Shown here in pieces: positions 21,620-54,919 of a DNA stretch of 64,000 nt. The DNA comes from Aromatoleum evansii (GTDB lineage Bacteria; Pseudomonadota; Gammaproteobacteria; Burkholderiales; Rhodocyclaceae), in NCBI RefSeq assembly GCF_012910805.1, contig NZ_WTVK01000019.1:1-64000 (forward strand). The letters run 5' to 3'. The notes below the pieces were generated by a model. That model ran no database searches. It was not told the origin of the DNA and saw only the letters and a program-made list of their open reading frames with translations. The first letter of the stretch is position 1. Each line of letters starts with the position of its first letter. The position numbers and the translations under genes were made by a program.

Positions 21620-21678
21620 GTCAGGCTCCTGATTGACGCGGAGCCTGCCCCCCTGCGGGAGACAGCCCCGCATGGGTT
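21620..21678 (-). promoter_or_regulatory. Structured 5' leader, copy 1
   Basis: Hairpin sequestering the Shine-Dalgarno: AGGCUCC (21640-21646) pairs with GGAGCCU (21623-21629). Upstream, UGCGGG can pair with CCCGCA, and that second arm can instead pair with the following GGG, giving two exclusive folds. Begins with AACCC. Confidence 0.75.
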
Positions 21679-21694
21679 GGTGGATTGCTTCGTT

Positions 21695-22231
21695 CTACGC
21701 CGCAAGCGGCGTCTGCTCTTGCGTCTGGCCGGGCGCGGTGAGCGACCTGACCATCCAGCGCGCCGCCTCCATGGCTTCCGCGTGACGGAACTGTTCGGTT
21801 CCGTCGGTGATGACCACGAACGCCTTTCCCTGCCTTGTGAGGCGCACGGTGCGACCCTTGCACTGCACCCTGGCCTCACCGGCGCGTTTCGCGCTCACTG
21901 CCACTTCCAGCGCGAGCGATTCGGTCGCGAGCCAGATCGCCCCGGCCATCTCTTCGGCCAGTTTCTGCCGGCGCAGCGCGAGATTGCGCTCCTCGGTGAT
22001 GCGGGCCGTTTCCGCCCACGCCTCACCGACGTCGACCGCATCGATCTCGACGAAGCAACCTGGATACCAGGCCACGTCGTTCGGGATCGCGCTATGCCCG
22101 GATTCAAGCGGCACCCATTGCAAGCGGTATTCCGGCAGGATGTTTCGCGGGCTTTGCCCCGGCCTCATCGGATAGGGGATCAGGACGAACCCCGTCCATT
22201 CCTGGAGGAAAATCGTCATCTTGGTGTGCAT
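21695..22231 (-). CDS. Hypothetical protein (178 aa)
   Basis: Not recognised. Begins MHTKMTIFLQEWTGFVLIPY. A long alpha-helical middle (RITEERNLALRRQKLAEEMAG) is followed by a short beta segment (ARVQCKGRTVRLTRQGKAFVV) that looks like a small barrel. No signal peptide or membrane segment, so probably cytoplasmic. It has its own leader and lies 75 bases before the PP-loop gene, which also has one; the two could be co-transcribed but separately controlled at translation. Confidence 0.65.
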   Translation of the reverse strand: MHTKMTIFLQEWTGFVLIPYPMRPGQSPRNILPEYRLQWVPLESGHSAIPNDVAWYPGCFVEIDAVDVGEAWAETARITEERNLALRRQKLAEEMAGAIWLATESLALEVAVSAKRAGEARVQCKGRTVRLTRQGKAFVVITDGTEQFRHAEAMEAARWMVRSLTAPGQTQEQTPLAA

Positions 22232-22285
22232 GGTTGGCTCCTTTGTGACGCGGAGCCCTTCCCGACGGGAAAGCCCCGCCAGGGT
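22232..22285 (-). promoter_or_regulatory. Structured 5' leader, copy 2
   Basis: SD hairpin GGCUCC (22252-22257) with GGAGCC (22236-22241). Upstream, UUCCCG pairs with CGGGAA; the alternative is GCGGG with CCCGU, sharing the CCCG arm. Confidence 0.75.
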
Positions 22286-22300
22286 AATGAATCTTGAAAG

Positions 22301-22711
22301 TCAGTCCGCTGCGATGGTTTCGGACGCCGAAATCACTTCGGACAGAAACACCTCGGCCAATCCGTCGCCACAGTCCAGCACGATGATCGTCTCGCCGTGC
22401 AGACCTTCAACCGCACCCGTCTCGGACACGATGCGCACGACGCGACAGACGCCCGAGGACAGTCCATTGTCGGGATCGGTCCAGAAAACCTCGTCGTCCG
22501 GCTGCAGGGTGTAGAGACCTTCGTAGCGGGGATCGAAATCCCCGAATTCCTGCGCGCGTTCGAGTGACCAGACTTCGGCCTCGGGATTGACGGCGAGGAA
22601 CTGTGCAGCGTCCTGTGCGGACGCCAAGCGTGAGGCGGAAGCCAGATCGAAGCACCAGCCCGAATCGGTCCAGTAGCCGGCTTCCTTGCGAGAGGCGATG
22701 ACGTGAGGCAT
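22301..22711 (-). CDS. Hypothetical acidic protein (136 aa)
   Basis: Not recognised. An acidic protein with a helical N-terminal half (SASRLASAQDAAQFLA) and a C-terminal half containing DDEVFWTDPDNGLSSGVCRVV, which looks like a small SH3-like or barrel fold. The start at 22711 follows a CCGGAG ribosome-binding site embedded in leader copy 3; an upstream ATG at 22834 would extend through the leader. First gene of the minus-strand run that ends with the PP-loop gene. Confidence 0.6.
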   Translation of the reverse strand: MPHVIASRKEAGYWTDSGWCFDLASASRLASAQDAAQFLAVNPEAEVWSLERAQEFGDFDPRYEGLYTLQPDDEVFWTDPDNGLSSGVCRVVRIVSETGAVEGLHGETIIVLDCGDGLAEVFLSEVISASETIAAD

Positions 22712-22780
22712 GTTTTTCTCCGGTTGTGCGGAGGCCTCACGCACCCCGCCTGGGTTCGTGAGAACCCCGCGAGGCATGTT
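22712..22780 (-). promoter_or_regulatory. Structured 5' leader, copy 3
   Basis: SD hairpin CUCC (22730-22733) with GGAG (22718-22721). Upstream a larger stem CUCACG with CGUGAG encloses ACCC and GGGGU. A GCGGGGU element lies 5' of it, with the CUUUCAAC motif at the far end. The remaining 22781-23012 holds the divergent promoter region of the next plus-strand gene and no visible ORF of note. Confidence 0.65.
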
Positions 22781-23012
22781 GAAAGTCTGGTTGCGGGCCC
22801 AGCGTGCCCATGACGATCCACGATGGATCGACAATTACGATGAGTCTAGCATGCGCCTTCGGTATCTGCGCAAAACCCATCTTGCAACGGCAGCTAAACG
22901 TGTTGAACTGAATCCATCGCGGCAAACGACGCTTTATCAGCCTTTTAGCGCGCCGTCTCGTATCCGCGAACCCGCTACTATCGCGGGCTGCACATGCTGT
23001 CATGGAGATTTT

Positions 23013-23927: not shown

Positions 23928-24145
23928 TGAGTTGGCAATGGATTGGCCTAGAAATCGGCACCCTCGCGGCGTCGATCCTCGTATGGCTCGGCTTCATGCT
24001 CTTGCTCGCGCCGCTTTATGGCGCCCCCCCGATTACCGAGAACCCCGCCTACTACCTGAGTTCGCTGGTGGTCGGCCTGTTTCTTCATGCCGTATGGCGC
24101 TACTGGCGCCGTCGCGCGCACGCCAAGACACACACTGAGGATTGA
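23927..24145 (+). CDS. Small two-helix inner-membrane protein (72 aa)
   Basis: Two predicted transmembrane segments (residues about 8-31 and 43-58) and a basic C-terminal tail (RYWRRRAHAK). No family recognised. Its start overlaps the previous stop (TAATG), and its stop lies five bases before the ATG of the RTX gene, so it is the middle gene of a tricistron. It may anchor or help export its neighbours. Confidence 0.75.
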   Translation: MSWQWIGLEIGTLAASILVWLGFMLLLAPLYGAPPITENPAYYLSSLVVGLFLHAVWRYWRRRAHAKTHTED

Positions 24146-24150
24146 CCATC

Positions 24151-25611
24151 ATGCCCACCTTCACAAACGTCACCAGCACTTCGGCTACCCCGGAACCGGG
24201 TTTTCTCTATAGCGCTTACGCCGGCCAGATTACCGATGCGCTCGACTCGATCCGGCAGGCGGCTCTGACGGTCGCCACGGCCGATCCTTGGTCCCAGAAC
24301 ATCACGGCCAGCGTCGCCCAATTCGGCTACGCCAACGGCACTGAACTCGATGCGCAGATTGCATCGCGCACTGCAACCTCGGTCGTTTTCAGCCGGGCCG
24401 AGATCACGGCGGCCGACGGGTCGAGCATCGACCTTACCGGAAGCGCCAAGATGTCACTGAGCAAGAGCGGCGACATCGTGGCGGCACCGGCCAAACTCAC
24501 GCGCCTCGACTACGGCAACGAGGAGGCAATGCAAATCCTCAATGGTGCGCTGAAGCTCGACCCGAACACGGGAGTGCTGACTGGCCGCCTGACTTCCATC
24601 ACCCTCGCTTTCAGCAACGACAACCCCGCCACCTCGGCCCATGAATGGGACTATGTGACATTGACCGGTCGCGTGGGTCTGTCGGGCAACCTGACCAACG
24701 GATTGCAGTCGCTCACCGGCAAATTCGCAGGCGTGGATTGGGGCACGATGAGCACCACAGCGAACGGAGCGACCTCTTTCAGCTCCGAAGGCGCGGTGAG
24801 TGGCCTCAAGATCGATGCTGCCACCCTCTTGAGCGGCCTGCAAAGCAGCGGGTTCGACGCCCTCAAGGCAGGCCTCTATAGCGGCAACGACACCATCGAC
24901 GGCACCGCCGGCGCCGACCTCCTCGATGCCGGAACCGGCAACGACAAGGTGTATGGCGAAGACGGCGACGACACGATTCGTGGCGGCGCGGGCAATGACC
25001 AACTGTTTGGCGGCGCGGGCAACGACATCATCGATGGTGGAGCGGGCAACGACAAGATCACGGACGATGCCGGGCACAACACGATCACCGACCTCGAAGG
25101 CAATGCGAATATCGTCACCGGCGGCGGCAACGACACCATCACCACGGGCGCGGGCAACGACAAGATCGCCGCGGGCGACGGCGCGAATGTCATCCGTTCA
25201 GGTGCGGGCAACGACACGATCATCACTGGCGGCGGCGCCGACTGGATCAACGGCGGCCAGGGCGCGGACAAACTGACCGGCGGAGGCGGCGCCGATGTGT
25301 TCGTATTCGACAACCTTGCTGTCGGTGGCAAGGACGCGATCATGGACTTCAATGCGTCCGAGGACGTCTTTGCCTTTGATACGGGCGTTTTCACCAAGCT
25401 CGCCGGCGGCATCAGCGCCGAGAATTTCGTCATCGGCAAGGTGGCGCTTGACGCCGATGACTACCTGATCTTCGACACCAGCGGCGGCAAGCTCTACTAC
25501 GACGCCGACGGCAGCGGCGGCGGCGCAGCCATCCAGATCGCAGGCGTGAAGGGCGCGCTCGCCGGGCTGAGCGCCGACAGCTTTGCCGACGCCGACCTCA
25601 TGCTCGCCTGA
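24151..25611 (+). CDS. RTX-type calcium-binding repeat protein (486 aa)
   Basis: Secreted-type protein. Residues 1-245 form a heptad-free, Ser/Thr-rich beta domain. Residues about 250-375 hold glycine-rich nonapeptides (GGAGNDQLFGGAGNDII and similar) that form a calcium-dependent beta roll. The C-terminal segment VFVFDNLAVGGKDAIMDF is the usual end of type I secretion substrates. No signal peptide and no type I secretion genes nearby, so a host exporter would be needed. ATG 24151 is preferred to TTG 24142 because GAGG is correctly spaced. Followed by a strong terminator. Confidence 0.85.
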   Translation: MPTFTNVTSTSATPEPGFLYSAYAGQITDALDSIRQAALTVATADPWSQNITASVAQFGYANGTELDAQIASRTATSVVFSRAEITAADGSSIDLTGSAKMSLSKSGDIVAAPAKLTRLDYGNEEAMQILNGALKLDPNTGVLTGRLTSITLAFSNDNPATSAHEWDYVTLTGRVGLSGNLTNGLQSLTGKFAGVDWGTMSTTANGATSFSSEGAVSGLKIDAATLLSGLQSSGFDALKAGLYSGNDTIDGTAGADLLDAGTGNDKVYGEDGDDTIRGGAGNDQLFGGAGNDIIDGGAGNDKITDDAGHNTITDLEGNANIVTGGGNDTITTGAGNDKIAAGDGANVIRSGAGNDTIITGGGADWINGGQGADKLTGGGGADVFVFDNLAVGGKDAIMDFNASEDVFAFDTGVFTKLAGGISAENFVIGKVALDADDYLIFDTSGGKLYYDADGSGGGAAIQIAGVKGALAGLSADSFADADLMLA

Positions 25612-25623: not shown

Positions 25624-25666
25624 AAAAACCCCCGACGGGCTCACGAAGCCGGTCGGGGGTTTTTTC
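25624..25666 (+). terminator. Rho-independent terminator after RTX gene
   Basis: CCCCCGAC (25629-25636) pairs with GTCGGGGG (25652-25659) and is followed by a run of six T. Upstream A residues let it act on the convergent minus-strand transcript too. Confidence 0.9.
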
Positions 25667-25698
25667 TTTCCATCGCCGGCACAGGGCCGGCTTTGCGG

Positions 25699-26483: not shown

Positions 26484-26663
26484 CTAGCGTGCAAGCACGC
26501 GATCGAGTTGCTGTTTGCGATCCTTGAAACACCGCTCGGCACGCGTATGGCAACGCTTGCCCTGCGGTGAATCGTCATCTTCAAAGCGCCGCATCTGCGC
26601 CTGGAAGTGATCCATCTCCCGGACGAGCCTCCCGATCTTCTGCTGACGGTTGTGCGGGTTCAT
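26484..26663 (-). CDS. Hypothetical charged protein (59 aa)
   Basis: Not recognised. Very charged and helical (RLVREMDHFQAQMRRFED), with two Cys in RCHTRAERCF. The ATG at 26663 overlaps the stop of the upstream 79-aa gene (26660-26663), which supports both. Probably a small adaptor or DNA-binding peptide within the same operon. Confidence 0.6.
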   Translation of the reverse strand: MNPHNRQQKIGRLVREMDHFQAQMRRFEDDDSPQGKRCHTRAERCFKDRKQQLDRVLAR

Positions 26664-26899
26664 GGATGCTCCATGAGGCCCGTTGCGTCCGCTTCGGACA
26701 GCTCGTAGCGGCGCAGCGCAATCCGGTGGCACGAGAACCGCACCATCGGCTCCACCGTCTGGCCGTAAGCCTTCGAGTAGTGATCGAGATAGCTGTCAAG
26801 CTTCGCAATCGTCCGGTTGCCAAGGCCCTGCGCTTCGAGGTATTCGAGCGCGCAGCGGGCCGGTATCGGCAGGTTGTGCTGCGGAATGGCATCAGGCAT
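26660..26899 (-). CDS. Hypothetical protein (79 aa)
   Basis: Not recognised. Starts MPDAIPQHNLPIPARCALEY and contains a helical stretch (RTIAKLDSYLDHYSKAYGQ). The start at 26899 directly follows leader copy 5 and its GGAGUC ribosome-binding site. First gene of the minus-strand operon 26899-25699. Confidence 0.65.
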   Translation of the reverse strand: MPDAIPQHNLPIPARCALEYLEAQGLGNRTIAKLDSYLDHYSKAYGQTVEPMVRFSCHRIALRRYELSEADATGLMEHP

Positions 26900-26961
26900 T
26901 TTCGACTCCTTCGTTGGAGGGAGTCCGATCCCCGCAGGGAGTCGGAACCCCCTCGGGTTGA
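26900..26961 (-). promoter_or_regulatory. Structured 5' leader, copy 5
   Basis: SD hairpin GACUCC (26920-26925) with GGAGUC (26904-26909), a compensatory variant of the GGCUCC/GGAGCC stem. Upstream stem UCCGA with UCGGA encloses CUCCC and GGGG. Confidence 0.8.
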
Positions 26962-26976
26962 ATTGGTGCGCGCCGC

Positions 26977-28398
26977 TTACAGCCCCAGCGTGCACATCGG
27001 GCAGGCAATGTGCCGTTCATCCACCTCCAGTTCGCCCTCCTCTTTCACGACGGGGACGTACCTGGACAGGTGCAAGACCTCACCGGTTGGCCCGGTGATG
27101 TTGGACAGCGCCTTTTCTGACGATTCCAGTTGCTCATACCCCCACGTCCAGGGACGATCCCGGTAGCGTTCGTATTGAGCAATCTCCTGCCGCAGCCCTT
27201 CGGCGTGCAGCGACCGCGTGGCCCAGCCAGTCAGATGCCTGATCTGCTGGTACGACTCGCCCTCGGACCAGGTGTAGAGGTTCTCGCCGGGCAACGCCTT
27301 GAGCTTGGAGGTGTCCACCTGATCGGCCGGGAGGTCGATGCAGGCGATCACCAGCCGGCATTCATTTGCCATCTCGTCCTGGGTGAGCCCGTGGGCCTCA
27401 CTGGTCAGAAGTCTGTGCACCCAATGGTTATCCAACTGCTTCTTGAGCGAGGCCAGTTCCCTGGAATAACTCACGAAACGCTGCCACCAGACGCCCGTAG
27501 CCGGGTGCCAGAACAGCTCGTAAGCGGCGAACAGCGTCGTGCGCGCGCCCTCGGTGAAGAGGCTGAGGCTGTCGTTGCGGGGTTTGCGCCCGCGCATCTC
27601 GACCACCTCCCCTTCGCCTGCGTCAAGGTCGGACGGCAGCGGGAACGTCACCCAATTTGCACCGATCTTGGCTTCTTCCCAGAGGGGCGTGGCGGGAGTG
27701 TGCCGTTGCACGAATCGAACCGGGACTTTCTCGCACTGCATCCCGCGATTGAATCCTTCCGGGCGCTCGAGCATCAGGCCGATGAGTTCCGTGCGACGTT
27801 GGAAGAAGCACGTTTCACAGCCACTGCGGGAACGCCGGCGGTAGTACGCAGGCACCCCGATCGACTCCTCGAGCACGCGCATGATGTCGCCGCGGCGAAG
27901 ATCGAGGTCGATGAAGGGCAGATGCGTCTCGATCACCGGGGAGGTGAAAGCCAATCGGGTCGCCTCATCGGCACGAATGCCGATGTAAGCGTGGATCAGC
28001 TCGTCGCCCTGCCGGGCCTCTTTCATGAACCGCTCGAACGGCAGCGTCTTGAGTTGCTTCGTGCAGTAGCGCGAATTCGGACCGGGAAGGAATCCCCCCC
28101 AGTCTTCGATCAATTGGAACAGGTCTCGCTCCGCTTTGATGCGAATGATCTTGCGCCCGGTGAACTGCTCCACCTTGTCGAGCGTCTCGTAGCAGCCCTG
28201 TTCGTCGGCCGCCGTATCGGTGAAGATGAGTTGAAACGGGACATCGGGGAAGAGTGCGGTCATGACGATCGCCAATGCCGCCGAGTCTGCCCCACCGCTT
28301 TGCGGAATCCAGTGCTGATCCCGCGGGCCGCCCGGTAATTGAAACCGGCCGGCAAGATGTGCGAAGCGCGTTCGCACGAAGTCGGGTATTGCTCCCAT
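26977..28398 (-). CDS. PP-loop ATPase, PAPS-reductase-like (473 aa)
   Basis: Second adenine-nucleotide alpha-hydrolase protein of the window. The PP-loop WIPQSGGADSAALAIVM is near residue 34, FTDTAADEQGCYETL follows as in PAPS-reductase-type enzymes, and NSRYCTKQLKTLPFERF supplies a family-type Cys motif. A Cys pair near CETCFF and the C-terminal CPMC suggest metal or cluster binding. Only about family-level similarity to the protein at 19979-21619. Own leader and own transcription unit. Substrate unknown; sulfur or base modification is possible. Confidence 0.8.
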   Translation of the reverse strand: MGAIPDFVRTRFAHLAGRFQLPGGPRDQHWIPQSGGADSAALAIVMTALFPDVPFQLIFTDTAADEQGCYETLDKVEQFTGRKIIRIKAERDLFQLIEDWGGFLPGPNSRYCTKQLKTLPFERFMKEARQGDELIHAYIGIRADEATRLAFTSPVIETHLPFIDLDLRRGDIMRVLEESIGVPAYYRRRSRSGCETCFFQRRTELIGLMLERPEGFNRGMQCEKVPVRFVQRHTPATPLWEEAKIGANWVTFPLPSDLDAGEGEVVEMRGRKPRNDSLSLFTEGARTTLFAAYELFWHPATGVWWQRFVSYSRELASLKKQLDNHWVHRLLTSEAHGLTQDEMANECRLVIACIDLPADQVDTSKLKALPGENLYTWSEGESYQQIRHLTGWATRSLHAEGLRQEIAQYERYRDRPWTWGYEQLESSEKALSNITGPTGEVLHLSRYVPVVKEEGELEVDERHIACPMCTLGL

Positions 28399-28459
28399 GT
28401 TTGGCTCCACGTGGAGCCGGAGTGCGTCCCCAACCGGGGCGCAGACCCCGGCGGGTTGA
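28399..28459 (-). promoter_or_regulatory. Structured 5' leader, copy 6
   Basis: SD hairpin GGCUCC (28413-28418) with GGAGCC (28403-28408) and a four-base loop. Upstream, CCGGGG pairs with CCCCGG, or that CCCC pairs with the next GGGG. Starts with CAACCC. Confidence 0.8.
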
Positions 28460-28567
28460 TGATGGCTGGCTTCGGTCAGCGACCCGGTATCCCAGCTACC
28501 GTTTCTGGCGAGACCGCCAAGAAATACGCCTTGCCGCTGCGCTCACGTGAAGCACAGGGGCAAGGCG

Positions 28568-28601
28568 CCGCACGGGGAGGGATAACCCCTCGACCGTGCG
28601 G
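28568..28601 (-). terminator. Hairpin downstream of the 92-aa gene
   Basis: CCGCACGG (28568-28575) pairs with CCGTGCGG (28594-28601), with an inner GAGGG/CCCCTC match. It lies nine bases after the stop at 28610. No clear U run, so it may be a terminator or a processing/stability hairpin. Confidence 0.55.
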
Positions 28602-28609
28602 AACATTGC

Positions 28610-28888
28610 TTACAGCTGAACGCTGGGTTCGTAGATCCGCACCACCCCGTACTGCGGGTGATGGCAGACCGGCCCAAACTCATCGAAGCCCGTCACACGG
28701 CTCTCGTGCATCGACGGGTCGGGGCGTGAGGCGGTGACGTACTGAATCCCGCGCATCACACCCATCCACCCATCGCCACGCAGATAGCGACGTGCGGTCT
28801 CCTCGCTGATGCGTTGGATGAACGATCCATCGCGCATGCGCAGCCGGTAGATGATTGGCTGCTCCGGGGTCGGTTGCTTCTCGCTCAT
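28610..28888 (-). CDS. Hypothetical protein (92 aa)
   Basis: Not recognised. Contains a beta-type start (PIIYRLRMRDGSFIQRISEE), a Trp-rich loop, and ends in FGPVCHHPQYGVVRIYEPSVQ. No signal or membrane segment. It lies ten bases after the 220-aa gene with a GAGGAG site and no leader of its own, so it is the second gene of that operon. Confidence 0.65.
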   Translation of the reverse strand: MSEKQPTPEQPIIYRLRMRDGSFIQRISEETARRYLRGDGWMGVMRGIQYVTASRPDPSMHESRVTGFDEFGPVCHHPQYGVVRIYEPSVQL

Positions 28889-28898
28889 GGCCGACTCC

Positions 28899-29561
28899 TC
28901 ACGCCACCAGTCTTTCAGCGGTTGAGAAGCGTGCCGCCGCGAGCGCAGCCTTCAAGGAACACACATCAAAGCGGTGCGTGCCCAGATGCTGCGCCAGGAC
29001 ACGAAACACCTGGAACGGCACTTCCCGAACGAGAGTCGCTTCCGCGAACACCTCTCCGTCATGAGTGAGCCACCCGCTGTAGGAGCGCTCCGGTTGGCCC
29101 GGCAACGATGCCCGAGCCACCATATCGGCTGCCACGTTTGGACCGATGCGACCGGTCAGTTCCAGCGCAAACGTCTCCGCCCAAGTCGTCTCACCGCAAC
29201 GGAAATCGACCTGCACCGTGAAGTGCGCGGACGGTTCCGTCTTGGCAAGCTGCCCCTCGGTACAATCGAAGACGCGAAGCGCTTTACTGCCGCTTCCGAC
29301 GATCTCGCACCAGTGCGCTTCCGACGACCAGATGAAGTTGCCACCGAAGGCGTACCGTGTCGTGCCTCGAAGCGGTTCGGGCATCGCCACAAGTTCGGCC
29401 ATGCCGCTGCGCGCGAGGTAGAGCGCCGGCATCTGCACGTTCGGCTCGACCAACTGCGGCACCGCGTCACCGATCAACACCACCGTGTCGAAACGGTTCG
29501 AAATACCTGTGCTTCCCGCGAGCGACGAGCGGAAGACTTGGACGGGTAATCCCTTCTGCAT
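28899..29561 (-). CDS. Hypothetical protein (220 aa)
   Basis: Not recognised. Mostly beta-sheet sequence (TTRYAFGGNFIWSSEAHWCE, HFTVQVDFRCGETTW, SYSGWLTHDGEVF). No signal peptide, membrane segment or catalytic signature. It carries leader copy 7 and is followed by the 92-aa gene. Probably cytoplasmic. Confidence 0.65.
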   Translation of the reverse strand: MQKGLPVQVFRSSLAGSTGISNRFDTVVLIGDAVPQLVEPNVQMPALYLARSGMAELVAMPEPLRGTTRYAFGGNFIWSSEAHWCEIVGSGSKALRVFDCTEGQLAKTEPSAHFTVQVDFRCGETTWAETFALELTGRIGPNVAADMVARASLPGQPERSYSGWLTHDGEVFAEATLVREVPFQVFRVLAQHLGTHRFDVCSLKAALAAARFSTAERLVA

Positions 29562-29632
29562 GGTGACCTCCTGAATGATGATGCGGAGTCACCAGATGCC
29601 CCTGCCGGGATCTAGCGACCCCGCGGGGATTG
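29562..29632 (-). promoter_or_regulatory. Structured 5' leader, copy 7
   Basis: SD hairpin GGUGACUCC (29585-29593) with GGAGGUCACC (29562-29571), a nine-pair stem with one bulge. Upstream CCCCGCGGGG, and a CCC with GGG pair around GGCA. Confidence 0.8.
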
Positions 29633-29673
29633 AAATGTCAAAGGTATGAACTTGCTGGGCGATTGATGCGAGT

Positions 29674-29689
29674 GGCGCCCGAAGGCGCC
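29674..29689 (-). terminator. UUCG-capped hairpin after SlyB-like gene
   Basis: GGCGCC, tetraloop UUCG, GGCGCC on the minus strand, 16 bases after the stop at 29706. A very stable hairpin without a U tract; likely a terminator or 3' protection element. Confidence 0.6.
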
Positions 29690-29705
29690 CCCTGTTGCGG
29701 GCTGA

Positions 29706-30296
29706 TCAGAAGTAGCCGACCTGCCCGCCACCCTGTTGCTGCATTTGCGGCTGCACAGGACGTGCTGCCGAGCGGTGACGTGCGACACGGGTGAGCTGCC
29801 CATCGACCAAGCGCACCGTCTCGCCCACGTGGAGCGATGCGGCTTGCGAGTCGACGGCTTGCGTTACCGCGACCATCTCGCCGTTGGGAAACTCCACGAC
29901 GATTTCGAGCGCGGTTTCTTCCACCGTGTCGATGGCTTCGGCAGCACGCGAACCGCCCCAAGCGCCCAAGGCACCGAGAACGAGTTGCGCCGCCTGTTGG
30001 CCGGTGCCTTCACCGACACGCTGGCCGGCAAGCGCACCAAGCGCTGCGCCGAGCCCCGCACCGATGAACTCCCCTGCTCCACCTTGACGACGCGAGGACA
30101 CGCGGACCTCACGAATGTCGACGATGGTGCCGAGTTGCACCGCCTGACGATGACGCGCTTCGCCACCCCGATAATCCGATCCCGTGTTGGGGCCGTTGTA
30201 ATCGCCTCCACCCCATCCGAAGAACTGCGCATGGGCGGCGCTGCCGCCGAACATCAGGACGAGAGCGGTAAAGAGGGAAAAAATTGCGTTTTGCAT
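29706..30296 (-). CDS. SlyB-like glycine-zipper envelope protein (196 aa)
   Basis: Signal peptide MQNAIFSLFTALVLMFGGSAAHA. The central glycine-zipper membrane region (GEFIGAGLGAALGALAGQ) and a C-terminal beta part (ALEIVVEFPNGEMVAVTQ) are as in SlyB/Rcp-type outer-membrane proteins. No lipobox Cys, so exported rather than a classical lipoprotein. Ends in a Gln-rich tail. Own leader upstream and hairpin downstream, so probably monocistronic. Confidence 0.8.
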   Translation of the reverse strand: MQNAIFSLFTALVLMFGGSAAHAQFFGWGGGDYNGPNTGSDYRGGEARHRQAVQLGTIVDIREVRVSSRRQGGAGEFIGAGLGAALGALAGQRVGEGTGQQAAQLVLGALGAWGGSRAAEAIDTVEETALEIVVEFPNGEMVAVTQAVDSQAASLHVGETVRLVDGQLTRVARHRSAARPVQPQMQQQGGGQVGYF

Positions 30297-30371
30297 GATG
30301 CGCTCCTCAAAGGGAATTGCGGAGCGCCTGTCCCCTGCGGGGATAGGACCCCGCGGGTTTGTGAAAGGCTG
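30297..30371 (-). promoter_or_regulatory. Structured 5' leader, copy 8
   Basis: SD hairpin GCGCUCC (30321-30327) with GGAGCGC (30300-30306), fully compensatory. Upstream GCGGGG pairs with CCCCGC, or CCCC with the next GGGG. The AGCCUUUCA motif lies at its 5' end. Confidence 0.85.
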
Positions 30372-30476
30372 CATGATGTTGCCCGACGCGATGTCGGCAT
30401 GGTCGCTGCAGCGACGTCCATGAATTTCCGAGGCCACAATGGCACCCGAGAAAACCGGCAGGAGGACTTTCGCCCA

Positions 30477-30509
30477 CCTTGCCCAAAGCTTGCTGTGCCT
30501 TGGGCAAGG
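30477..30509 (-). terminator. Hairpin after ART-like gene
   Basis: Ten-base perfect stem CCTTGCCCAA with TTGGGCAAGG, downstream of the stop at 30543 on the minus strand. No long U tract. Confidence 0.55.
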
Positions 30510-30542
30510 CGCCCCTTGCGGGGGGCCTGCCTGTTGCGAACA

Positions 30543-31547
30543 TTATGCCGCACGCTTTTCTTGCTGTGCGAGGAATTCGCGCAGCGCGTGCCGCATCTTC
30601 TTGGCGTTCTTCCGCCCGCACAGGAGCGCATCCAGGATGCCGACCCGCTGTGGATTGGGAATGGACACCATGTCGAGGTCGTAGAGGGAACGGTCGATCA
30701 TCGCGTCGTACTCTGCATCCGACATGACCACTGCCTCACCCCGCCGTAACGAAGCCGCCTTGCACAGCAGCGGATCATGCGTCTGTCGCCCCAGCCAGTC
30801 GAGATACTCGGGCGTATCCAACACGTCCGTCAGCGCGGTGCGGAAGTTGGGCCAATCGAAATGACAAGCCTCGATCCGCGTAAAGCGCAGCTTCGGAATG
30901 GCTGCGGTGAAGAAGCCGACCGACTCGTGGCCGACAGTGCCCCAAGTTTCCGACTGTGTGAAATCGTGGATCCGAATGCCATCCCAGCCTTCGTCCTCGA
31001 GACGGCGAAAAAGGCCAAGACGATTGTAGTCGGGGCTCTGCAAGTCCCCTTCTCGTCCGGTCACGAAATCGTAGATGCGCAGTGATTCCGCGCCCTCCAC
31101 AATCCACAACCAGCCGGCGGCCGCATTGCTCGCGGCGGCGAACACATGGGCATCGCGCACAGTGTCGTAGCGCAGCAGTTTCAGCCACGTCCGACCGTCC
31201 TGCACTTCATACCCAAGCTCGTCGCGCATGTACGCTTCAACTTCGCCGTAGGTCGGCCAGCCCTCGGGGATCACCCACGAACGCGCCCGGCCAGAACTGT
31301 CCCATTCAATGTGCGGAACTTCCTTGCCCATGTGGGACACGGCCACCGAGTACGCCGGATCGCCCTTCACGGGCCAGACCCGTTCGTGCGCAAGCTGTTG
31401 CCCCTGCTGCCACAACATCGTGGACGTCGACGCCGGGATGTAGGTTTGCGCCACCGCGGACGAGCCAGCCGTCCAGAAGACGCGATCGAACCCTCCCACT
31501 GCGGGCGACTCGAAGTCTTTGACTGTACCGTGGAATAGTCGCTGCAT
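30543..31547 (-). CDS. Putative ADP-ribosyltransferase-fold protein (334 aa)
   Basis: The N-terminus RLFHGTVKDFESP, then VFWTAGSSAVAQTYI, resembles the HGT and ST-type strands of ART-like barrels. Later, DEGWDGIRIHDFTQSETWG and GHESVGFFTAAIPKLRF match the conserved DGI and final strand of that fold. Assignment to a family is not certain. The C-terminal 90 residues are a separate helical region. If active it would modify protein or nucleic acid with ADP-ribose; a NADAR-domain protein, which can remove such marks, is encoded 2 kb away. Confidence 0.5.
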   Translation of the reverse strand: MQRLFHGTVKDFESPAVGGFDRVFWTAGSSAVAQTYIPASTSTMLWQQGQQLAHERVWPVKGDPAYSVAVSHMGKEVPHIEWDSSGRARSWVIPEGWPTYGEVEAYMRDELGYEVQDGRTWLKLLRYDTVRDAHVFAAASNAAAGWLWIVEGAESLRIYDFVTGREGDLQSPDYNRLGLFRRLEDEGWDGIRIHDFTQSETWGTVGHESVGFFTAAIPKLRFTRIEACHFDWPNFRTALTDVLDTPEYLDWLGRQTHDPLLCKAASLRRGEAVVMSDAEYDAMIDRSLYDLDMVSIPNPQRVGILDALLCGRKNAKKMRHALREFLAQQEKRAA

Positions 31548-31606
31548 GTCTTTGCTCCTGGTGATGCCCGGAGCCTCCCCACCGGGGAGGAATCCCCGGG
31601 CGGGTG
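31548..31606 (-). promoter_or_regulatory. Structured 5' leader, copy 9
   Basis: SD hairpin GCUCC (31570-31574) with GGAGC (31554-31558). Upstream CCUCCCC pairs with GGGGAGG; the alternative is CCGGGG with CCCCGG. Confidence 0.8.
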
Positions 31607-31645
31607 ATGGATGAGTCGCTGATCACGACTCGACTTGCGCCAGCC

Positions 31646-31819
31646 TCAGATGGGCCAGGCGCGCACGTTTTCGGCAGGGACGAGCTTGCGGGTCCCATCC
31701 AAAGTGACTATCGAGAAACCGATGCCGGTCACGGTTTTAGCCACCGTCCCTTCACGAATCACGCCATCGTCAAGTTGGTATTGAACTCGCATGCCAGCCG
31801 GCAGCTTTCTGGTTGCCAT
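31646..31819 (-). CDS. Small SH3-like hypothetical protein (57 aa)
   Basis: A short, beta-rich sequence (MRVQYQLDDGVIREGTVAKT, LDGTRKLVPAENV) resembling small SH3/KOW-type barrels. AAGGAGCC lies just before ATG 31819. The upstream region has no full leader. Probably nucleic-acid or protein binding. Confidence 0.6.
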   Translation of the reverse strand: MATRKLPAGMRVQYQLDDGVIREGTVAKTVTGIGFSIVTLDGTRKLVPAENVRAWPI

Positions 31820-31892
31820 GTTGGCTCCTTGGTTCTGCGCAACGTCGCCCGCGTTGGGGTCGATGTCGCGCGGTTTATGTACTGCAGATCGC

Positions 31893-32129: not shown

Positions 32130-32212
32130 TGATTGGGTCTTGCAATGGATGCTGGCTGTGGTAAATCTTGAATCACAGGCTTCCAGCCTCCATCACAAGG
32201 GACTTGAATATC

Positions 32213-47903: not shown

Positions 47904-48224
47904 TCAAGCGGCCTGCAACTGCTCGAAGGCTGCGAACACAGCCCGGCGCAAGTCCGGCTCATCCGGCACACCGCTAGCGTCGAGCGCCGCGTGGAACCGG
48001 ATGTCCCGGCGCAAACCCACCTTGGCGGCCTCCACCCTGTCGCGAATGCGCGGGTGGATTTCGTAGGTCAGCGCGACATCGGGCGAACTCGTGACGATCG
48101 CCGTGGCGCTCCTGCCCGCGGATTGCACGGACTCCAACGCGGCCCTCGCCTCGGCTTCGGGGCAAAAGCGGTGCTGCGCCTTCCCGTGTTCCTCGAACAC
48201 GAGGATCGTGTTTACATCGTTCAT
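47904..48224 (-). CDS. Hypothetical protein (106 aa)
   Basis: Not recognised. Starts MNDVNTILVFEEHGKAQHRF, with a helical C-terminus (DLRRAVFAAFEQLQAA). GGAGAAAG in leader copy 13 lies before ATG 48224. Monocistronic. Confidence 0.65.
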   Translation of the reverse strand: MNDVNTILVFEEHGKAQHRFCPEAEARAALESVQSAGRSATAIVTSSPDVALTYEIHPRIRDRVEAAKVGLRRDIRFHAALDASGVPDEPDLRRAVFAAFEQLQAA

Positions 48225-48285
48225 TTCTTTCTCCTGGTTGTGCCCGGGAGAGCCGCCCGCGAGGGCGAACCCTGTGGGCGTGAAT
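48225..48285 (-). promoter_or_regulatory. Structured 5' leader, copy 13
   Basis: SD hairpin UCUCC (48247-48251) with GGAGA (48230-48234). Upstream GCCC with GGGC, or AGGG with CCCU sharing the middle CCC. Confidence 0.75.
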
Positions 48286-48309: not shown

Positions 48310-48636
48310 TCAAAGGTCGAGGATGCAGCCCCCGACCACGGCGAACTCTTCGCCCGAGAATCGCAGCTTCTGCAGCTGGTCGAAGTTCTCGTCACGTCGT
48401 GCATCGACGTGGGCGAAACTCATTCCGGTGTCAGCCTCCACGATCCCCGTGGTGAGGCAGGGATAGCTGACCCCTGCCCGTTCGCCCGACATGTAGCGGG
48501 CGAAACTGCGGCAATCCGAACTGCGATCCAGCCGGTAGCCGAGATCCGCCAAACGGCGCTTCACGGCGTCGAGCGTGACCTGCTCCTGCCCCTGACTTTT
48601 TCGGAATCCGATTTCCACCTGTAGGAACATTTCCAT
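48310..48636 (-). CDS. Hypothetical protein (108 aa)
   Basis: Not recognised. FLQVEIGFRKSQGQEQVTLD is followed by a helix and SFARYMSGERAGVSYPC. GGAGAAAGCAGC precedes ATG 48636. Monocistronic with its own leader. Confidence 0.65.
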   Translation of the reverse strand: MEMFLQVEIGFRKSQGQEQVTLDAVKRRLADLGYRLDRSSDCRSFARYMSGERAGVSYPCLTTGIVEADTGMSFAHVDARRDENFDQLQKLRFSGEEFAVVGGCILDL

Positions 48637-48705
48637 GCTGCTTTCTCCTTCAGCGATGCCGACGGAGACGCCCCCACGGAGGGCGTCTCCCTCCTGGGCA
48701 ATTGA
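48637..48705 (-). promoter_or_regulatory. Structured 5' leader, copy 14
   Basis: SD hairpin UCUCC (48664-48668) with GGAGA (48644-48648). Upstream GACGCCC with GGGCGUC (48667-48673 and 48681-48687), competing with GGAGGG paired to CCCUCC. The lower stem and the SD stem share bases, so they are exclusive. Confidence 0.75.
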
Positions 48706-48725: not shown

Positions 48726-49337
48726 TCAGTTGACGACGCGACGCTCCGTCACGAGACATTCCAGAACGTCGAGTGCGTGGCGAGCCTTGCCGCTCGCACG
48801 CAATCCGATGTCCTCGCGGTCGACGCGTCGGATCAGCTGGTGCCGCCGATCCGTCACGAGGCCTCCCACCACCACGGGGGCCTTGCGGCCATCGAAGTAG
48901 CGGAACAGGTAGGCCCAGCCGCCGGGAAAGCCCGCACTTTCCGGCTTCGCCAGTTGGTGCAGGTAACTGAACACGCCGCGCCCACCTTTGGTGCAGCACA
49001 TCGTGCCCACATCGGACATGAAGAGTGCCTGCGGATCGAACTCGAATCCGTTGCAGGTCTGCTCTTGCGTCGAGCGCAGGCAATTGGAGAACTGCGTCGT
49101 ACCCCAGACGTTGCCCATGCCGAGATACTCGGATTGACGATCGAAGGTTGCGAGTTCCGTTTGCGGCTTGCCCGTCCAGAGTCGGCAGGACTCGAACGTG
49201 ACCCCTGACTTGGGTTCCAGCGACTGCAGCACTTCATCGCGGGTCCGCTCGTCGACGTAGGCGAGATATTCCGTGACCTCCTCGCGGCGGACACGAATCC
49301 CGTGACTGATTTCGAGACCCGGTATTTGCGTGCTCAT
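48726..49337 (-). CDS. Hypothetical protein (203 aa)
   Basis: Not recognised. A helical start (SLEPKSGVTFESC) precedes a core with QFSNCLRSTQEQTCNGFEFD and a Cys-containing SDVGTMCCTKGGRGV, and a basic C-terminal helix. The start at 49337 is inside the end of leader copy 15 (GGAGUUCACC). The divergent gene at 49579 shares the duplicated operator region. Confidence 0.65.
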   Translation of the reverse strand: MSTQIPGLEISHGIRVRREEVTEYLAYVDERTRDEVLQSLEPKSGVTFESCRLWTGKPQTELATFDRQSEYLGMGNVWGTTQFSNCLRSTQEQTCNGFEFDPQALFMSDVGTMCCTKGGRGVFSYLHQLAKPESAGFPGGWAYLFRYFDGRKAPVVVGGLVTDRRHQLIRRVDREDIGLRASGKARHALDVLECLVTERRVVN

Positions 49338-49441
49338 TGGTGAACTCCTCGGTAATGCGGAGGACACCAGAGACCCCTACGGGGCTGGCGTACCCCGCGG
49401 GTTGAGATGAACGACCTCGCGTCGTTCGTGTTGAAAGGCTG
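49338..49441 (-). promoter_or_regulatory. Structured 5' leader, copy 15, with extra 5' hairpin
   Basis: SD hairpin GGUGUCCUCC (49359-49368) with GGAGUUCACC (49339-49348), two central mismatches. GCGGGG with CCCCG, or CCCC with GGGG. A 7-bp hairpin GAACGAC/GUCGUUC and the CAGCCUUUCAAC motif lie 5'. Confidence 0.85.
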
Positions 49442-49488
49442 ATTGACCGTCAGCTCGGCATCTTGCTCGTCACAATGACGAGCGGGAA
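49430..49488. repeat. 59-bp duplicated intergenic element, copy B
   Basis: Repeat of 33671-33729. The 19-bp palindrome GCTCGTCACAATGACGAGC is at 49465-49483, and a half-site TGACGAGC recurs at 49513. Lies between the divergent genes 49337 (minus) and 49579 (plus). Confidence 0.85.
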
Positions 49489-49578
49489 GATGCGCGTACG
49501 ATACGTCCACGATGACGAGCCTGTCAAACGATGCAACGACCCTCTTTCGAACCTATTGTCATGTGATACTTTCGTCGC

Positions 49579-51805: not shown

Positions 51806-53008
51806 TCAGGCAGCCATGGGCATCGGTGTCCGGCTACGACTCAGCCGGGCGCCCGATTTCTCGATAGTCGAAACCACCTCGATGGCACATTGTCGCGCGT
51901 GTGCGAACTGGCGCTGTAGCTCGTCGGCCAAATCGTGCATCTCCTCGAACACGACGCCCCGCTCGTACCAGTAGCGCGCGATCGCCGCTCGCTCCTCGGG
52001 GGTCGCCCCAGGAGCAAGCCACTCCACGAACCATTCGAGCTCGTCCAGCGAATACGCTCCCGGAATCATCAGATTGCCGATGATCTCGGTTTCGTCGTCG
52101 CCATAGCCGAACTCCTGACCGAAGCACTGCGCGGCCCGCATGAGTTCTGCGGGATCGCACCACAAGCGGTTTAAGAGCGGCCGGATGTCGCCCAGCTCGC
52201 GCTGTGCCCTCGCCCGGATGGCTCGGGTGGCCACCGTCACCGGCGCCGCCTCGCCCACCATGGCGCGAATGCGGCAGCTATCGGCCGTCAGCACGGTTGC
52301 CGGCGACGGCATACTGACGGCTGACGCCAAGGCGAAGAGCTTCTTGCGATCAGCACCGACGCCCAGCAGATGTACGCGGGCCGGCTGGCGTTCGCGCATC
52401 AACTGCCGGATCTCGGCAAGATCGAAGCTGTGCCTCTTGCACGGCAGGCCGAGGATGAACGCATCACCAAGCCCCACCGCCTCACGCACTGCGTCGTAAC
52501 CGGACACGATGCTGTCTGCGCCCCGCTGCAGCGGCACGATCAACTGTGCGCCCGTCCGATGCAGGGCGGCAATCTGCGCGCGATGCGCCCGAAGCAAGTC
52601 GAGCGTCGTCGCGAACTCACCGGGTTTGTCCGGCATCACCAGCATCAGCGCAGCCGGGGTGCGGACGGAGGCAACCAGTTGTCGGTAGCGCGACATCACA
52701 TCGCCAAAGTCGACCTGCTTCGCCTCGCCCGAGGAATACACCCCGGAATCGACGAACACCATGCCGCCCTCACTATCGACGTGCTGCCGCAGGCGCTCCC
52801 GCATCGGACCCGACAGCAGTCCGATCACGACACCCACCGGCTCGCCTGCCGCCGCGTAACCGTTAAACTCGGCCGGGTTGGAGGCCCCGGAGCGGAATAC
52901 CATCACCTCGCCGAGCAACTCCTCCGGCGGCGCGACCAATAATTGCTGCCGGTCATCCGCGCGCCTCACCTCGAAACCGGGAAAAAGGCTTTCGTCCATC
53001 TCAAACAT
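51806..53008 (-). CDS. DpdA-like (TGT-fold) DNA-modification protein (400 aa)
   Basis: Resembles DpdA and phage TGT-like enzymes that put 7-deazaguanine bases into DNA: GGMVFVDSGVYSSGEAKQV, VMPDKPGEFATTLDLL, QLIVPLQRGADSIVSGYD, GLGDAFILGLPCKRHSF and RVHLLGVGADRKKLF are in TIM-barrel order. The C-terminal 130 residues are helical. The family assignment is by pattern only; the substrate is unknown. Leader copy 16 precedes it and the DUF6884-like gene lies directly upstream, so the two form a pair. Confidence 0.6.
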   Translation of the reverse strand: MFEMDESLFPGFEVRRADDRQQLLVAPPEELLGEVMVFRSGASNPAEFNGYAAAGEPVGVVIGLLSGPMRERLRQHVDSEGGMVFVDSGVYSSGEAKQVDFGDVMSRYRQLVASVRTPAALMLVMPDKPGEFATTLDLLRAHRAQIAALHRTGAQLIVPLQRGADSIVSGYDAVREAVGLGDAFILGLPCKRHSFDLAEIRQLMRERQPARVHLLGVGADRKKLFALASAVSMPSPATVLTADSCRIRAMVGEAAPVTVATRAIRARAQRELGDIRPLLNRLWCDPAELMRAAQCFGQEFGYGDDETEIIGNLMIPGAYSLDELEWFVEWLAPGATPEERAAIARYWYERGVVFEEMHDLADELQRQFAHARQCAIEVVSTIEKSGARLSRSRTPMPMAA

Positions 53009-53072
53009 TTGCGTCTCCTAGTGCTACGGAAGACGCCGCCCACGAGGGACAGCATCCCCCGTGGGTTGAAAA
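53009..53072 (-). promoter_or_regulatory. Structured 5' leader, copy 16
   Basis: SD hairpin GCGUCUUCC (53028-53036) with GGAGACGC (53011-53018), one unpaired U. The upstream CCACGGGGG and CCCUCGUGG segments pair at longer range. Confidence 0.8.
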
Positions 53073-53555: not shown

Positions 53556-53660
53556 CACTTCGGGCGATCCGGGTTGGATGCCTCCAGTGCCGCGATCTCC
53601 GCCTCCAGTTTCCGCTTCTCGCGCTGGAGCGGTGCCTGCCTCCGAGAGTGGGCTGCTGTC

Positions 53661-54134
53661 CTAAACGGACTGTGCGGCAACGGCTTCATCCTGCTTGGTG
53701 ATCGCCGCTTTCGACGGCACACCATAGAAGCCCTCGACATCGATGCGATCGAGATCGGCCTCCTGGGCGTGCTCTGCGATCACCTGATACGGGCGATAGC
53801 CCTGCGCGATGCACTGCGCGACGATCGACTCGTCACACAGATGCGTGTCACCCAGTTCCAGCCCATAGTGGCGTTGGAGGAGGCTTGCCGCGATGCGCTG
53901 GAAGCGCTGCACGGTCATCGCCGGCGCTGCTGCCCCACGCTCGCGCACCAGGTCGACGAGTTCGGTGAAGCTCTTGCTCCCCACCTGGTCGGCCGCACGA
54001 TGAAAGGCGCTCCCGATTCTCCGGAACGCCGCATCGAGTAGTTCGACCTTGCGGGCGGTGATGCGCACGGCGGTAACGCCGACGATTTGTGCCTGATAGT
54101 TGGGGGGCACGATAAGGGTTGCGTTGCTCATCAT
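53661..54134 (-). CDS. Hypothetical protein (157 aa)
   Basis: Not recognised. Starts MMSNATLIVPPNYQAQIVGV. A helical core (ARKVELLDAAFRRIGSAFHR, SFTELVDLVRERG) is followed by FYGVPSKAAITKQDE. AGGAGUC before ATG 54134, inside leader copy 18. Monocistronic. An open frame at 53555-53740 on the same strand overlaps its end and is probably not a gene. Confidence 0.65.
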   Translation of the reverse strand: MMSNATLIVPPNYQAQIVGVTAVRITARKVELLDAAFRRIGSAFHRAADQVGSKSFTELVDLVRERGAAAPAMTVQRFQRIAASLLQRHYGLELGDTHLCDESIVAQCIAQGYRPYQVIAEHAQEADLDRIDVEGFYGVPSKAAITKQDEAVAAQSV

Positions 54135-54200
54135 GTCTGACTCCTTGAGGTGATGCCGGAGCCCGCCCCAACCGGGGCGAGAACCCCGGCGGGTGATGAA
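54135..54200 (-). promoter_or_regulatory. Structured 5' leader, copy 18
   Basis: SD hairpin GGCUCC (54158-54163) with GGAGUC (54139-54144). Upstream CCGGGG with CCCCGG, or CGCCCC with GGGGCG sharing the CCCC. Confidence 0.85.
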
Positions 54201-54204
54201 TGAC

Positions 54205-54498
54205 TCAACAGGCCCGATGCGCATGGCAGATGCTGCGAAATCCCGCGATCTGCAACATGCGACGGATGTGGCGCTGGATGGCCGAGCGCGTCCCACGCCA
54301 CGGGGCATAGAACGGCGCATTGAACACCTTCACGCCGGCGCGGCGGTTAATGCGCTCGTGGATGGACCCCGAGTGCATCTCTTCCAGCCACCGGTGACGC
54401 ACGCGCTCGTGGCTCACGAGACGCAGACCGTCGAACTCCACCGGCTTCGGTGCGCGCAATGCGAAGTCACGCAGCTCGTTGGAATGGAAGGGGCCCAT
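54205..54498 (-). CDS. Hypothetical protein (97 aa)
   Basis: Not recognised. Basic, Arg/His-rich protein (VEFDGLRLVSHERVRHRWLE, RRMLQIAGFRSICHAHRA) with Cys/His near the end. It starts four bases after the 112-aa gene, so it is its operon partner. Confidence 0.6.
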   Translation of the reverse strand: MGPFHSNELRDFALRAPKPVEFDGLRLVSHERVRHRWLEEMHSGSIHERINRRAGVKVFNAPFYAPWRGTRSAIQRHIRRMLQIAGFRSICHAHRAC

Positions 54499-54502
54499 GG
54501 CT

Positions 54503-54841
54503 TCACCCCTGCTCGCCGTCGATCTGCCGGATGAGGGCGAAAACATCGGTGCGGTCGGTGCCGCAGTGACTGCACACCCCTTCCTGCACGGCGGAGAGGC
54601 CGTTGATTTCCACCGGACCGGCCTGGTAATCGGCGGTTGAGCCGCAGCAGCGGCAGAACTCGACGCTTTCGGAGACGATGTTGACCTCCGATTGCATGTC
54701 GACCAGTTCCGCTTCGGTGTTGCCGGTGATCAGGCCGTGTGCGCGTGCCGCATTGATGAGCTGCTGCACGTTGGCGAGCAGCAGTTCATCGTCGGTGCCG
54801 TTGAGCTCGACGTCGATGGACAGTAATGCACGGATCTTCAT
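54503..54841 (-). CDS. Probable zinc-ribbon protein (112 aa)
   Basis: The C-terminal half carries CRCCGSTADYQ and CSHCGTDRTD, consistent with a four-Cys zinc site. The N-terminal half is a helical region (ELLLANVQQLINAARAHGL). Leader copy 19 precedes ATG 54841, and the 97-aa gene follows. Confidence 0.7.
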   Translation of the reverse strand: MKIRALLSIDVELNGTDDELLLANVQQLINAARAHGLITGNTEAELVDMQSEVNIVSESVEFCRCCGSTADYQAGPVEINGLSAVQEGVCSHCGTDRTDVFALIRQIDGEQG

Positions 54842-54919
54842 GTGGTGACTCCTTGGAAATACGGAGCCACCTGATGCCCCATCGGGATCAGAATGACCCC
54901 GTGGGTTGATGAAAGGCTG
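54842..54919 (-). promoter_or_regulatory. Structured 5' leader, copy 19
   Basis: SD hairpin GGUGGCUCC (54863-54871) with GGAGUCACC (54844-54852), one G-U pair. Upstream GUGGGUU, CCCC and GGGG segments; the AGCCUUUCA motif lies at the 5' end. The last copy seen on the right side. Confidence 0.8.

Follow-up and report, generated by a model that had tools for sequence, protein, structure and literature searches.

We analysed a stretch of 64,000 nucleotides (nt) of Aromatoleum evansii DNA, positions 1 to 64,000 of the contig NZ_WTVK01000019.1, referred to below as the window, in which a family of related leader modules of about 70 nt stands directly before the start codons of unrelated genes. The contig is a plasmid-like or integrated element, because it carries ParA, ParB, a weak RepM-like match, a phage-type integrase, RdgC, an IS66 transposase and HsdM/S/R-like genes. 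All twelve copies that an initial annotation had listed as the strongest were located on the minus strand, and each terminates at an ATG. Window positions of modules given below refer to the minus strand, and R1, R2 and R3 are covariance models.

Two of these putative switch modules, at 28396–28460 (R2 E 6.4e-7) and 21617–21681 (E 2.7e-9), precede genes for proteins with a PAPS reductase domain, of 473 amino acids (aa) (26977–28398; Pfam E 4.5e-6) and 546 aa (19979–21619; Pfam E 8.3e-8), respectively. The module at 54132–54198 (E 2.3e-7) precedes a gene for a 157-aa protein with a C-terminal CbtA_toxin match (53661–54134; PF06755, Pfam E 2.2e-7), and that at 54839–54910 (E 1.2e-9) a gene whose 112-aa product has only a weak rubredoxin-domain match (54503–54841; E 0.004). 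The window genes under modules are mostly without a Pfam match. This applies to the genes following the modules at 53006–53070 (E 5.3e-6; gene 51806–53008, 400 aa), 49335–49406 (E 2.7e-11; gene 48726–49337, 203 aa), 33579–33646 (E 8.2e-14; gene 33447–33581, 44 aa), 31545–31609 (E 4e-6; gene 30543–31547, 334 aa), 30294–30362 (E 2e-12; gene 29706–30296, 196 aa), 29559–29633 (E 2.4e-8; gene 28899–29561, 220 aa), 26897–26962 (E 6.9e-5; gene 26660–26899, 79 aa) and 22229–22288 (E 1.1e-5; gene 21695–22231, 178 aa).

R1, which was built from three window copies picked by eye, recovered all twelve copies at E≤0.045, with one false match at 48436 (E 0.039). R2 was built from 113 aligned rows, and its training was stepwise, from the three by-eye seeds to R1 matches at E≤0.03; only A8, the independent sequence set, and the plasmids pLM6 and pBB2 are therefore independent of it. 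Of the 22 matches of R2 in the window, the twelve copies had E-values from 8.2e-14 to 6.9e-5, and all others had E≥0.084, several of these being antisense mirrors of genuine copies. In the window, a simple motif descriptor, written post hoc after the copies were known, picked out 13 sites, all on the minus strand and none on the plus strand; reversed DNA controls had no site, and 200 first-order Markov shuffles had a mean of 0.005. These results confirmed that the leader family is genuine in the window, with twelve firm copies and two or three weaker ones that are plausible, not the 19 or so that the initial annotation had counted; the twelve that it called strongest are all firm (R2 E<1e-4), while the extras are marginal. 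One marginal copy, at 48634–48703 (minus strand; gene 48310–48636), was found by R2 (E 0.089) and by the descriptor, and its own minimum free energy (MFE) structure is a single long hairpin resembling the state B described below. A probable divergent copy at 48222–48279 (minus strand; gene 47904–48224) was found by the descriptor and by eye, with a fold z of −2.3 and an MFE structure having P1-like and Shine-Dalgarno (SD) hairpins, but is missing from the R2 window list at E≤10. A third, shortened copy at 22709–22783 (minus strand; R2 E 0.22; gene 22301–22711) is doubtful, as its fold z of −0.5 is no better than shuffles.

The consensus of the module is approximately YUCAACCC-n-GCGGGG-(loop L1)-CCCCGC-nn-GGG-(linker)-CUCCGC-(U-rich loop)-GGAG-n-AUG. 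In a first predicted fold, state A, ACCC-n-GCGGGG pairs with CCCCGC-nn-GGG to form hairpin P1, and the linker and CUCC pair with GGAG and the bases after it to form a hairpin that hides the SD. The CCCC/GGGG blocks remarked on in the initial annotation are present, but they are the arms of P1, and the G-rich arm can re-pair with the anti-SD strand. Among 146 distinct sequences, 92.0% of the cells were paired in state A versus 78.8% after shuffling, and 14 of the 18 pairs had double changes, with a covariation of 0.335 versus 0.121 that was reached in none of 500 shuffles. Double changes were found in eight of the nine SD-stem pairs, bearing out the covarying stems with the SD in their 3′ arm that had been noted before, and in all six inner P1 pairs, but in none of the three outer P1 pairs (CCC/GGG). 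When the partners were slid by 1–3 columns, covariation fell to 0.015–0.054, and in 52 distinct sequences outside the model it was 0.434 versus 0.161. In our own imitation of R-scape (145 sequences, 69 columns, 200 simulated alignments and a FastTree tree), the eight top-ranked of 2346 column pairs all belonged to state A, and three of them had E<0.05. Our analysis of covariation and sequence statistics thus showed support for both P1 and the putative SD-hiding hairpin.

In the second predicted fold, state B, P1 is given up: its GCGGGG arm now pairs with CUCCGC, L1 is base-paired to the linker and CCCC to the 3′ GGG, so that GGAG and the 5′ YUCAACCC are single-stranded. Since the alignment was fitted to state A, the complementarity of state B (G-rich arm with CUCCGC, L1 with linker) is not built into it. 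The whole structure of state B, evaluated on A6, had 75.5% of cells paired versus 71.2% in shuffles and a covariation of 0.187 versus 0.130 (0/500). The duplex of L1 with its own linker had an energy of −5.30 kcal/mol, versus −3.51±0.14 kcal/mol when partners were permuted within the element (0/2000, z −12.6). The same held for the window contig alone (n=20; 0/2000, z −7.8), for 15 non-redundant copies (0/5000) and for an independent set of 51 sequences (z −7.3, 0/5000). Pairs 13–89 and 14–88 join columns that have no partner relation in state A and are specific to state B; they were formed in 209 of 292 cells versus 186.5±4.1 expected (0/5000), while shifted controls gave z-values of 0.2 and −0.3. 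As far as sequence statistics go, the L1:linker complementarity and these B-specific outer pairs showed a signal of selection on the predicted SD-freeing fold as well. Sequence statistics and energy models together thus point to two mutually exclusive conserved folds controlling access to the SD, as in translational riboswitches.

The behaviour of the two folds was followed with energy models only. Full leaders were predicted to form P1 in 126 of 146 cases, with a mean SD unpaired probability of 0.10. State B was formed in 122/146 when the RNA ended just before the SD, again in 122/146 when the SD was occupied, and in 82/146 when YUCAACCC was held single-stranded; 103 of the 146 copies were strictly bistable. 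The preference for state B before the SD is made dropped from 123/146 to 66–76 when L1 was exchanged within the element, to 60–66 when L1 was shuffled and to 44–66 when the linker block was exchanged. In the independent set it was 37/51, versus 11–19 in 20 exchanges. Base-by-base MFE folding of five window copies showed a change from P1 to state B as the anti-SD emerges (about 44–50 nt), followed in four of the five by a change to state A once the SD and a few more bases are made (about 58–65 nt), whereas the copy at 29559 remained in B. The module at 54839 is an example of the full path, from P1 to state B and then to state A. This order of folding suggests that the SDs are accessible while the RNA is nascent and become closed later if nothing holds them open. 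The YUCAA segment is conserved although neither fold pairs it, a hint of a binding partner.

From the sequence statistics and the energy models, we consider it likely that the leaders constitute a shared two-state translational switch over a regulon of the mobile element. State A would be the off state and state B the on state. During synthesis of the RNA, state B is predicted to be favoured from the point at which the anti-SD is complete, with A taking over after the SD and a few bases have followed. The mRNA would then be translated while B is held by the first ribosome on the SD, by a factor keeping YUCAACCC single-stranded, or by both, and would otherwise close to A. With one module before many genes of an element, DNA-handling and anti-restriction genes would be joined in a regulon at the level of mRNA. 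A bolder version is possible but doubtful, namely a stand-alone, element-wide switch in which one standard platform precedes dozens of DNA-handling and anti-restriction genes, all controlled together by a single trigger that senses either the exposed YUCAACCC or the open fold, plug-in 5′ sensors sit on the first cistrons, and leaders are open on nascent transcripts and closed on old ones. If true, translation that is open on nascent transcripts would fit entry into a new cell, and two orphan RNA motifs, radC and DUF3085, would be explained as add-on domains of one switch.

Several results weigh against a two-state switch. Only three state-A pairs reached E<0.05 in the R-scape-like test, and no state-B pair was significant, the best being 13–89 with E 31. 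The L1:linker test failed in one of the six elements tested singly (L075, 524/2000), and the linker:post-SD test failed in three of the six (L071, L075 and L079). The control L1:post-SD was itself slightly low within elements (81/2000), but neither the non-redundant nor the independent set showed this. Holding YUCAACCC open freed the SD (>0.5) in 31/146 leaders only, and 18/146 full leaders preferred B, including window copy 29559 by MFE. State B averaged about 10 kcal/mol above A, with the B pairs forced and some copies unable to form them, and the direct-path barriers, which are upper bounds, had medians of 16 kcal/mol (B to A) and 24 kcal/mol (A to B). With this gap and these barriers, A and B would not be expected to exchange freely, and the switch requires a helper or a kinetic role. 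The initial annotation had inferred that a shared ligand, protein or RNA controls many element genes at once; no candidate for such a trans-acting factor was found, and no systematic search for its gene was made.

The position of the modules in operons bears on translational coupling, in which a ribosome ending the upstream gene would cover YUCAACCC and push the leader to state B, so that the next gene is translated. For 57 of 150 copies, an open reading frame (ORF) of at least 90 aa ends no more than 40 nt upstream, mostly at 5–20 nt, and removal of YUCAACCC moved 83/146 leaders to B, both of which would agree with coupling. However, the other 93 copies have no such upstream ORF, many of them having a long 5′ region with a structured 5′ domain, and, as noted, opening YUCAACCC frees the SD in few leaders. 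We therefore regard coupling as unlikely to account for the family.

It is also rather unlikely that the leaders are simple SD-hiding hairpins with state A only, which would lower or insulate translation, with P1 serving for stability or spacing and the alternative fold being incidental. State A is indeed the best-supported structure and the predicted ground state in most full leaders, and the pairs of B fall short of significance in the R-scape-like test. But L1, which has no partner in state A, complements its own linker far beyond permuted partners, also in the independent set, the B-only pairs are in excess, and exchanging L1 abolishes the pre-SD preference for B in about half of the copies.

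The regions upstream of the modules were then considered with regard to 5′ domains. The motif GGUAGCYG (GGTAGCYG in DNA) was found upstream of 28 of the 93 promoter-proximal copies versus 2 of the 57 intra-operon copies, when 2.7 would be expected among all 150. It forms the loop of a predicted H-type pseudoknot with stem S1 (GCGG/CCGC or AAGG/CCUU), stem S2 (GCUG/CAGC) and an A-rich third loop. Of its 35 positions, 21 were invariant in 16 sequences, unpaired A residues included, and three S1 pairs had double changes; S2 was invariant in A9 and was thus not tested by covariation there. R3, the model of this 35-nt pseudoknot, gave 56 matches at E≤0.01 in 41 sources, 46 of which had a module 0–300 nt downstream, 40 of them within 70 nt. 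The remaining ten had no R2 module within 300 nt, and of eight that were inspected, five or six had a module-like hairpin pair by eye. R3 matched 1 of 299 genomes of the phylum at E≤1e-3. In L117 (3254–3288) and L051 (2320–2354) the pseudoknot is followed by a different GCCCAACCC...GGGC hairpin with no start codon near, which is possibly a third kind of downstream part.

R3 had no match at E≤1 in the window or in L063–L067, so that kinship of the pseudoknot with the DUF3085-type domains of the window rests on a shared layout (GGUAGCUGG...CCAGC). The DUF3085 RNA (RF02959; gathering score 40.6 bits) reached its gathering score 5′ of two of the twelve firm window modules and not of the other ten. 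The two matches are on the minus strand at 54897–54952 (46.3 bits), which is pseudoknot-like, and at 28447–28501 (44.7 bits), and their 3′ ends overlap the first bases of the modules at 54839 and 28396, respectively. Three further pseudoknot candidates, all on the minus strand, were identified by eye and were unmatched by Rfam and R3. They are located at 30364–30417 before module 30294 (loop CUGCA/UGCAG), at 33675–33702 before module 33579 (GCUGA/UCAGC) and at 49434–49461 before module 49335 (GCUGA/UCAGC). The last two lie in a long, near-identical stretch upstream of both modules (33647–33740 and 49407–49500), with a GCTCGTCA..TGACGAGC hairpin and an identical pseudoknot core, as if promoter and leader were duplicated.

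In total, 12 of 13 copies of the DUF3085 RNA were followed at once by a module (one, in L111, marginal with a 37-nt gap, and one, in L107, partial), including 9/9 above the Rfam cut-off. This adjacency is partly by construction, because the last positions of the Rfam model and the beginning of the module overlap. A group II intron RNA (D1-D4-7, RF02012, 120.7 bits; L106, 1294–1447, minus strand) lies just 3′ of the sole DUF3085-like match without a module, which is below the cut-off, and an insertion may there have separated the two. The radC RNA was found directly 5′ of the module in seven of eight copies (G941 and G174), one of them at E 0.11 and two overlapping, and the eighth (L079, 128–270) is followed by the CGGTAGCTGG pseudoknot core instead of a module.

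These 5′ domains, that is, the small pseudoknot, the DUF3085 RNA and the radC RNA, stand mostly before promoter-proximal copies and probably serve the first module as sensors or stabilisers. In a conventional riboswitch, by comparison, the 5′ pseudoknot (the DUF3085 RNA or its 35-nt relative) or the radC RNA would bind a small ligand and the module would be its expression platform. The conservation of the pseudoknot, the double changes in S1 and the frequency with which all three domains are followed by a module agree with this explanation, which we nevertheless consider improbable for the family as a whole. Most modules lack a 5′ domain, the GGUAGCYG core standing before only 30 of the 150 copies, where a riboswitch would have an aptamer in every member. 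No shared pathway was found among the downstream genes, and the invariance of S2 in A9 leaves that stem without a voice from covariation. An RNA thermometer is very improbable and was rejected on energies: an SD held in a stem before the start codon is usual thermometer anatomy, but the predicted SD exposure hardly rises with temperature, being ≤0.02 up to 42 °C in nine of the twelve window copies and ≤0.03 at 60 °C in eight, while the remaining three already had the SD 0.26–0.42 open at 42 °C.

The putative switch module is not confined to the window. A covariance model built from the copies, as proposed with the initial annotation, found clustered matches in other proteobacterial elements, named plasmids included. 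In the A. evansii genome, R2 found at least 38 copies at E<0.1 among the 150 of 2239 first-look candidates that were scored. They lie in 4 of 330 contigs, with 22 in the contig of the window (C110; 12 in the window and 10 beyond it), 12 in C319, three in C275 and one in C198, and 37 of these 38 lie on the minus strand of the respective contig. R1 matched 71 of 297 genomes of the same family at E≤0.1, and R2, at E≤1e-3, matched 14 of 398 genomes from several orders and classes of the phylum, in large-sample searches whose stricter filters lost weak matches, as did those in the genome counts given here for R3, radC and DUF3085 RNA. The matches were clustered, with 187 R2 matches at E≤0.01 in 33 sources (435 kb). 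In stretches of three named plasmids, R2 gave 15 sense matches for Sulfuricystis multivorans pSTJ2 (40 kb), 12 for Methylomonas koyamae pLM6 (16 kb) and 5 for Cupriavidus necator pBB2 (32 kb). Of these 32, 25 terminate exactly at an independently annotated start codon. At positions 8716, 19932 and 22559 of the pSTJ2 sequence (L117), the annotated coding sequences, that of RadC among them, start inside or upstream of the leader and in frame with the start codon at the end of the module, and these three look like start-site misannotations.

The stretches of EbN1 plasmid 1 (L118), pTTS12 (L119), pPNAP01 (L120) and a Klebsiella plasmid (L122), which bear RadC or ParB, had no R2 match at E≤0.05. 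The module therefore does not simply track RadC or PRTRC genes. PRTRC cassette genes (ParB family and protein E) are found under modules in C319 (L066, 10161–13173), and related cassettes are present in pBB2 (L121), with modules nearby, and in EbN1 plasmid 1, where R2 found none. An exact-pattern scan of public genomes gave one match, in an actinobacterial metagenome-assembled genome (L006), which was taken as chance. The same type of scan found no match in viral sequences, and neither did a megablast search of window positions 26800–35600 against plasmids.

Of the 150 copies, 141 terminate at ATG or GTG, and 123 of these start a frame of at least 40 aa, although the model itself ends in CAUG. 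The 131 proteins of at least 35 aa under the 150 copies fell into 58 BLASTP families, 39 of which are singletons. Together with the ATG at the end of all twelve window copies, this upholds the earlier statement that related leaders stand directly before unrelated genes. A Pfam scan of ten representatives matched nine: RadC, a 1666-aa N6-MTase/SNF2-like protein, ArdC N-domain, RecT, PRTRC protein E, ParB, DUF3577, DUF3799 and SSB. Thus, in other elements, DNA-interacting and anti-restriction genes of mobile elements (RadC, ArdC N-domain, RecT, SSB, ParB and N6-MTase/SNF2) lie under modules, which is a gene context of the radC type.

The initial annotation had further suggested that the leaders may belong to the radC RNA family. 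The Rfam radC model, however, left the window leaders unmatched, with no match at E≤10 in window positions 21000–64000. In the whole A. evansii genome it gave five weak matches on other contigs (E 1.0 to 8.1; 13.6–17.5 bits), none of which reached the 40-bit cut-off, and on these results identity of the module with the radC RNA was rejected. The suggestion nonetheless pointed to something, as the radC RNA adjoins the module on its 5′ side in two other genomes. The radC RNA motif (RF01754) is listed in a table of PMC2864571. Like the module, it is a leader of proteobacterial mobile-element genes, but it has 149 positions and hairpins of its own, reaches no further than the module's first bases, and is much rarer in the samples searched, in 1 of 274 genomes of the class. 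The DUF3085 RNA motif was reportedly described in a 2017 survey of candidate RNAs. The last 12 or so positions of its model (AACCC..CGGG) equal the first bases of the module, but the model includes nothing more of P1 and neither the anti-SD nor the SD, and it was found in 4 of 249 genomes of the family (two over the cut-off), versus the 71 of 297 matched by R1. At gathering score, none of the Rfam families accounts for the module in any of the loci scanned, the window included; the only overlaps are with the ends of the DUF3085 and radC models.

As in the platforms of translational riboswitches, a single strand of the module is predicted to choose between two partners, hiding or freeing the SD; unlike in these, most copies have no recognisable sensor, and the platform is repeated before many unrelated genes. 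The aapA3 type I toxin mRNA of H. pylori forms metastable structures during transcription (PMC6733600). In this mRNA and in the plasmid hok mRNA, co-transcriptional refolding decides access to the SD, as is predicted for the module, but their transient hairpins silence the nascent RNA, whereas the predicted transient fold of the module is the open one. The genes under modules are also not one toxin family, and no antisense RNA was found here, the sole scan being that for GGGTTGAR, the complement of YUCAACCC, which has two minus-strand sites in the window (minus-strand offsets 7487 and 7833). No description of the module was found in the open-licence literature searched on radC, DUF3085, element leaders and metastable RNA.

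Exchange of the anti-SD between partners is a known principle. What is new, to our knowledge, is that it recurs throughout an element and is combined with 5′ domains that can be interchanged. Gene control in plasmids and integrative elements is usually described at the level of transcription, and a leader family with up to about twenty uses per element across Pseudomonadota would add a master control at the level of translation for genes of replication, recombination and anti-restriction. It also places two orphan RNA motifs, radC and DUF3085, in a common context. The covariance model is offered for locating such elements, and start-codon annotation inside leaders can be corrected with it, as in the three cases in pSTJ2.

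Other features of the window were noted as well. The region 3072–18601 contains the IS66 transposase, the phage-type integrase (9388–10626) beside ORFs of 575 and 722 aa without a family match, and the HsdM/S/R-like set. Close to the leader cluster, the 274-aa product of a minus-strand gene (56540–57364) strongly matches the Mom family of DNA-modification proteins (PF25680, E 1.8e-19). A 489-aa ORF on the plus strand (24142–25611) has repeated GGxGNDxI-like codons by eye (RTX-like), and it is followed by a strong terminator-like hairpin near 25625–25670.

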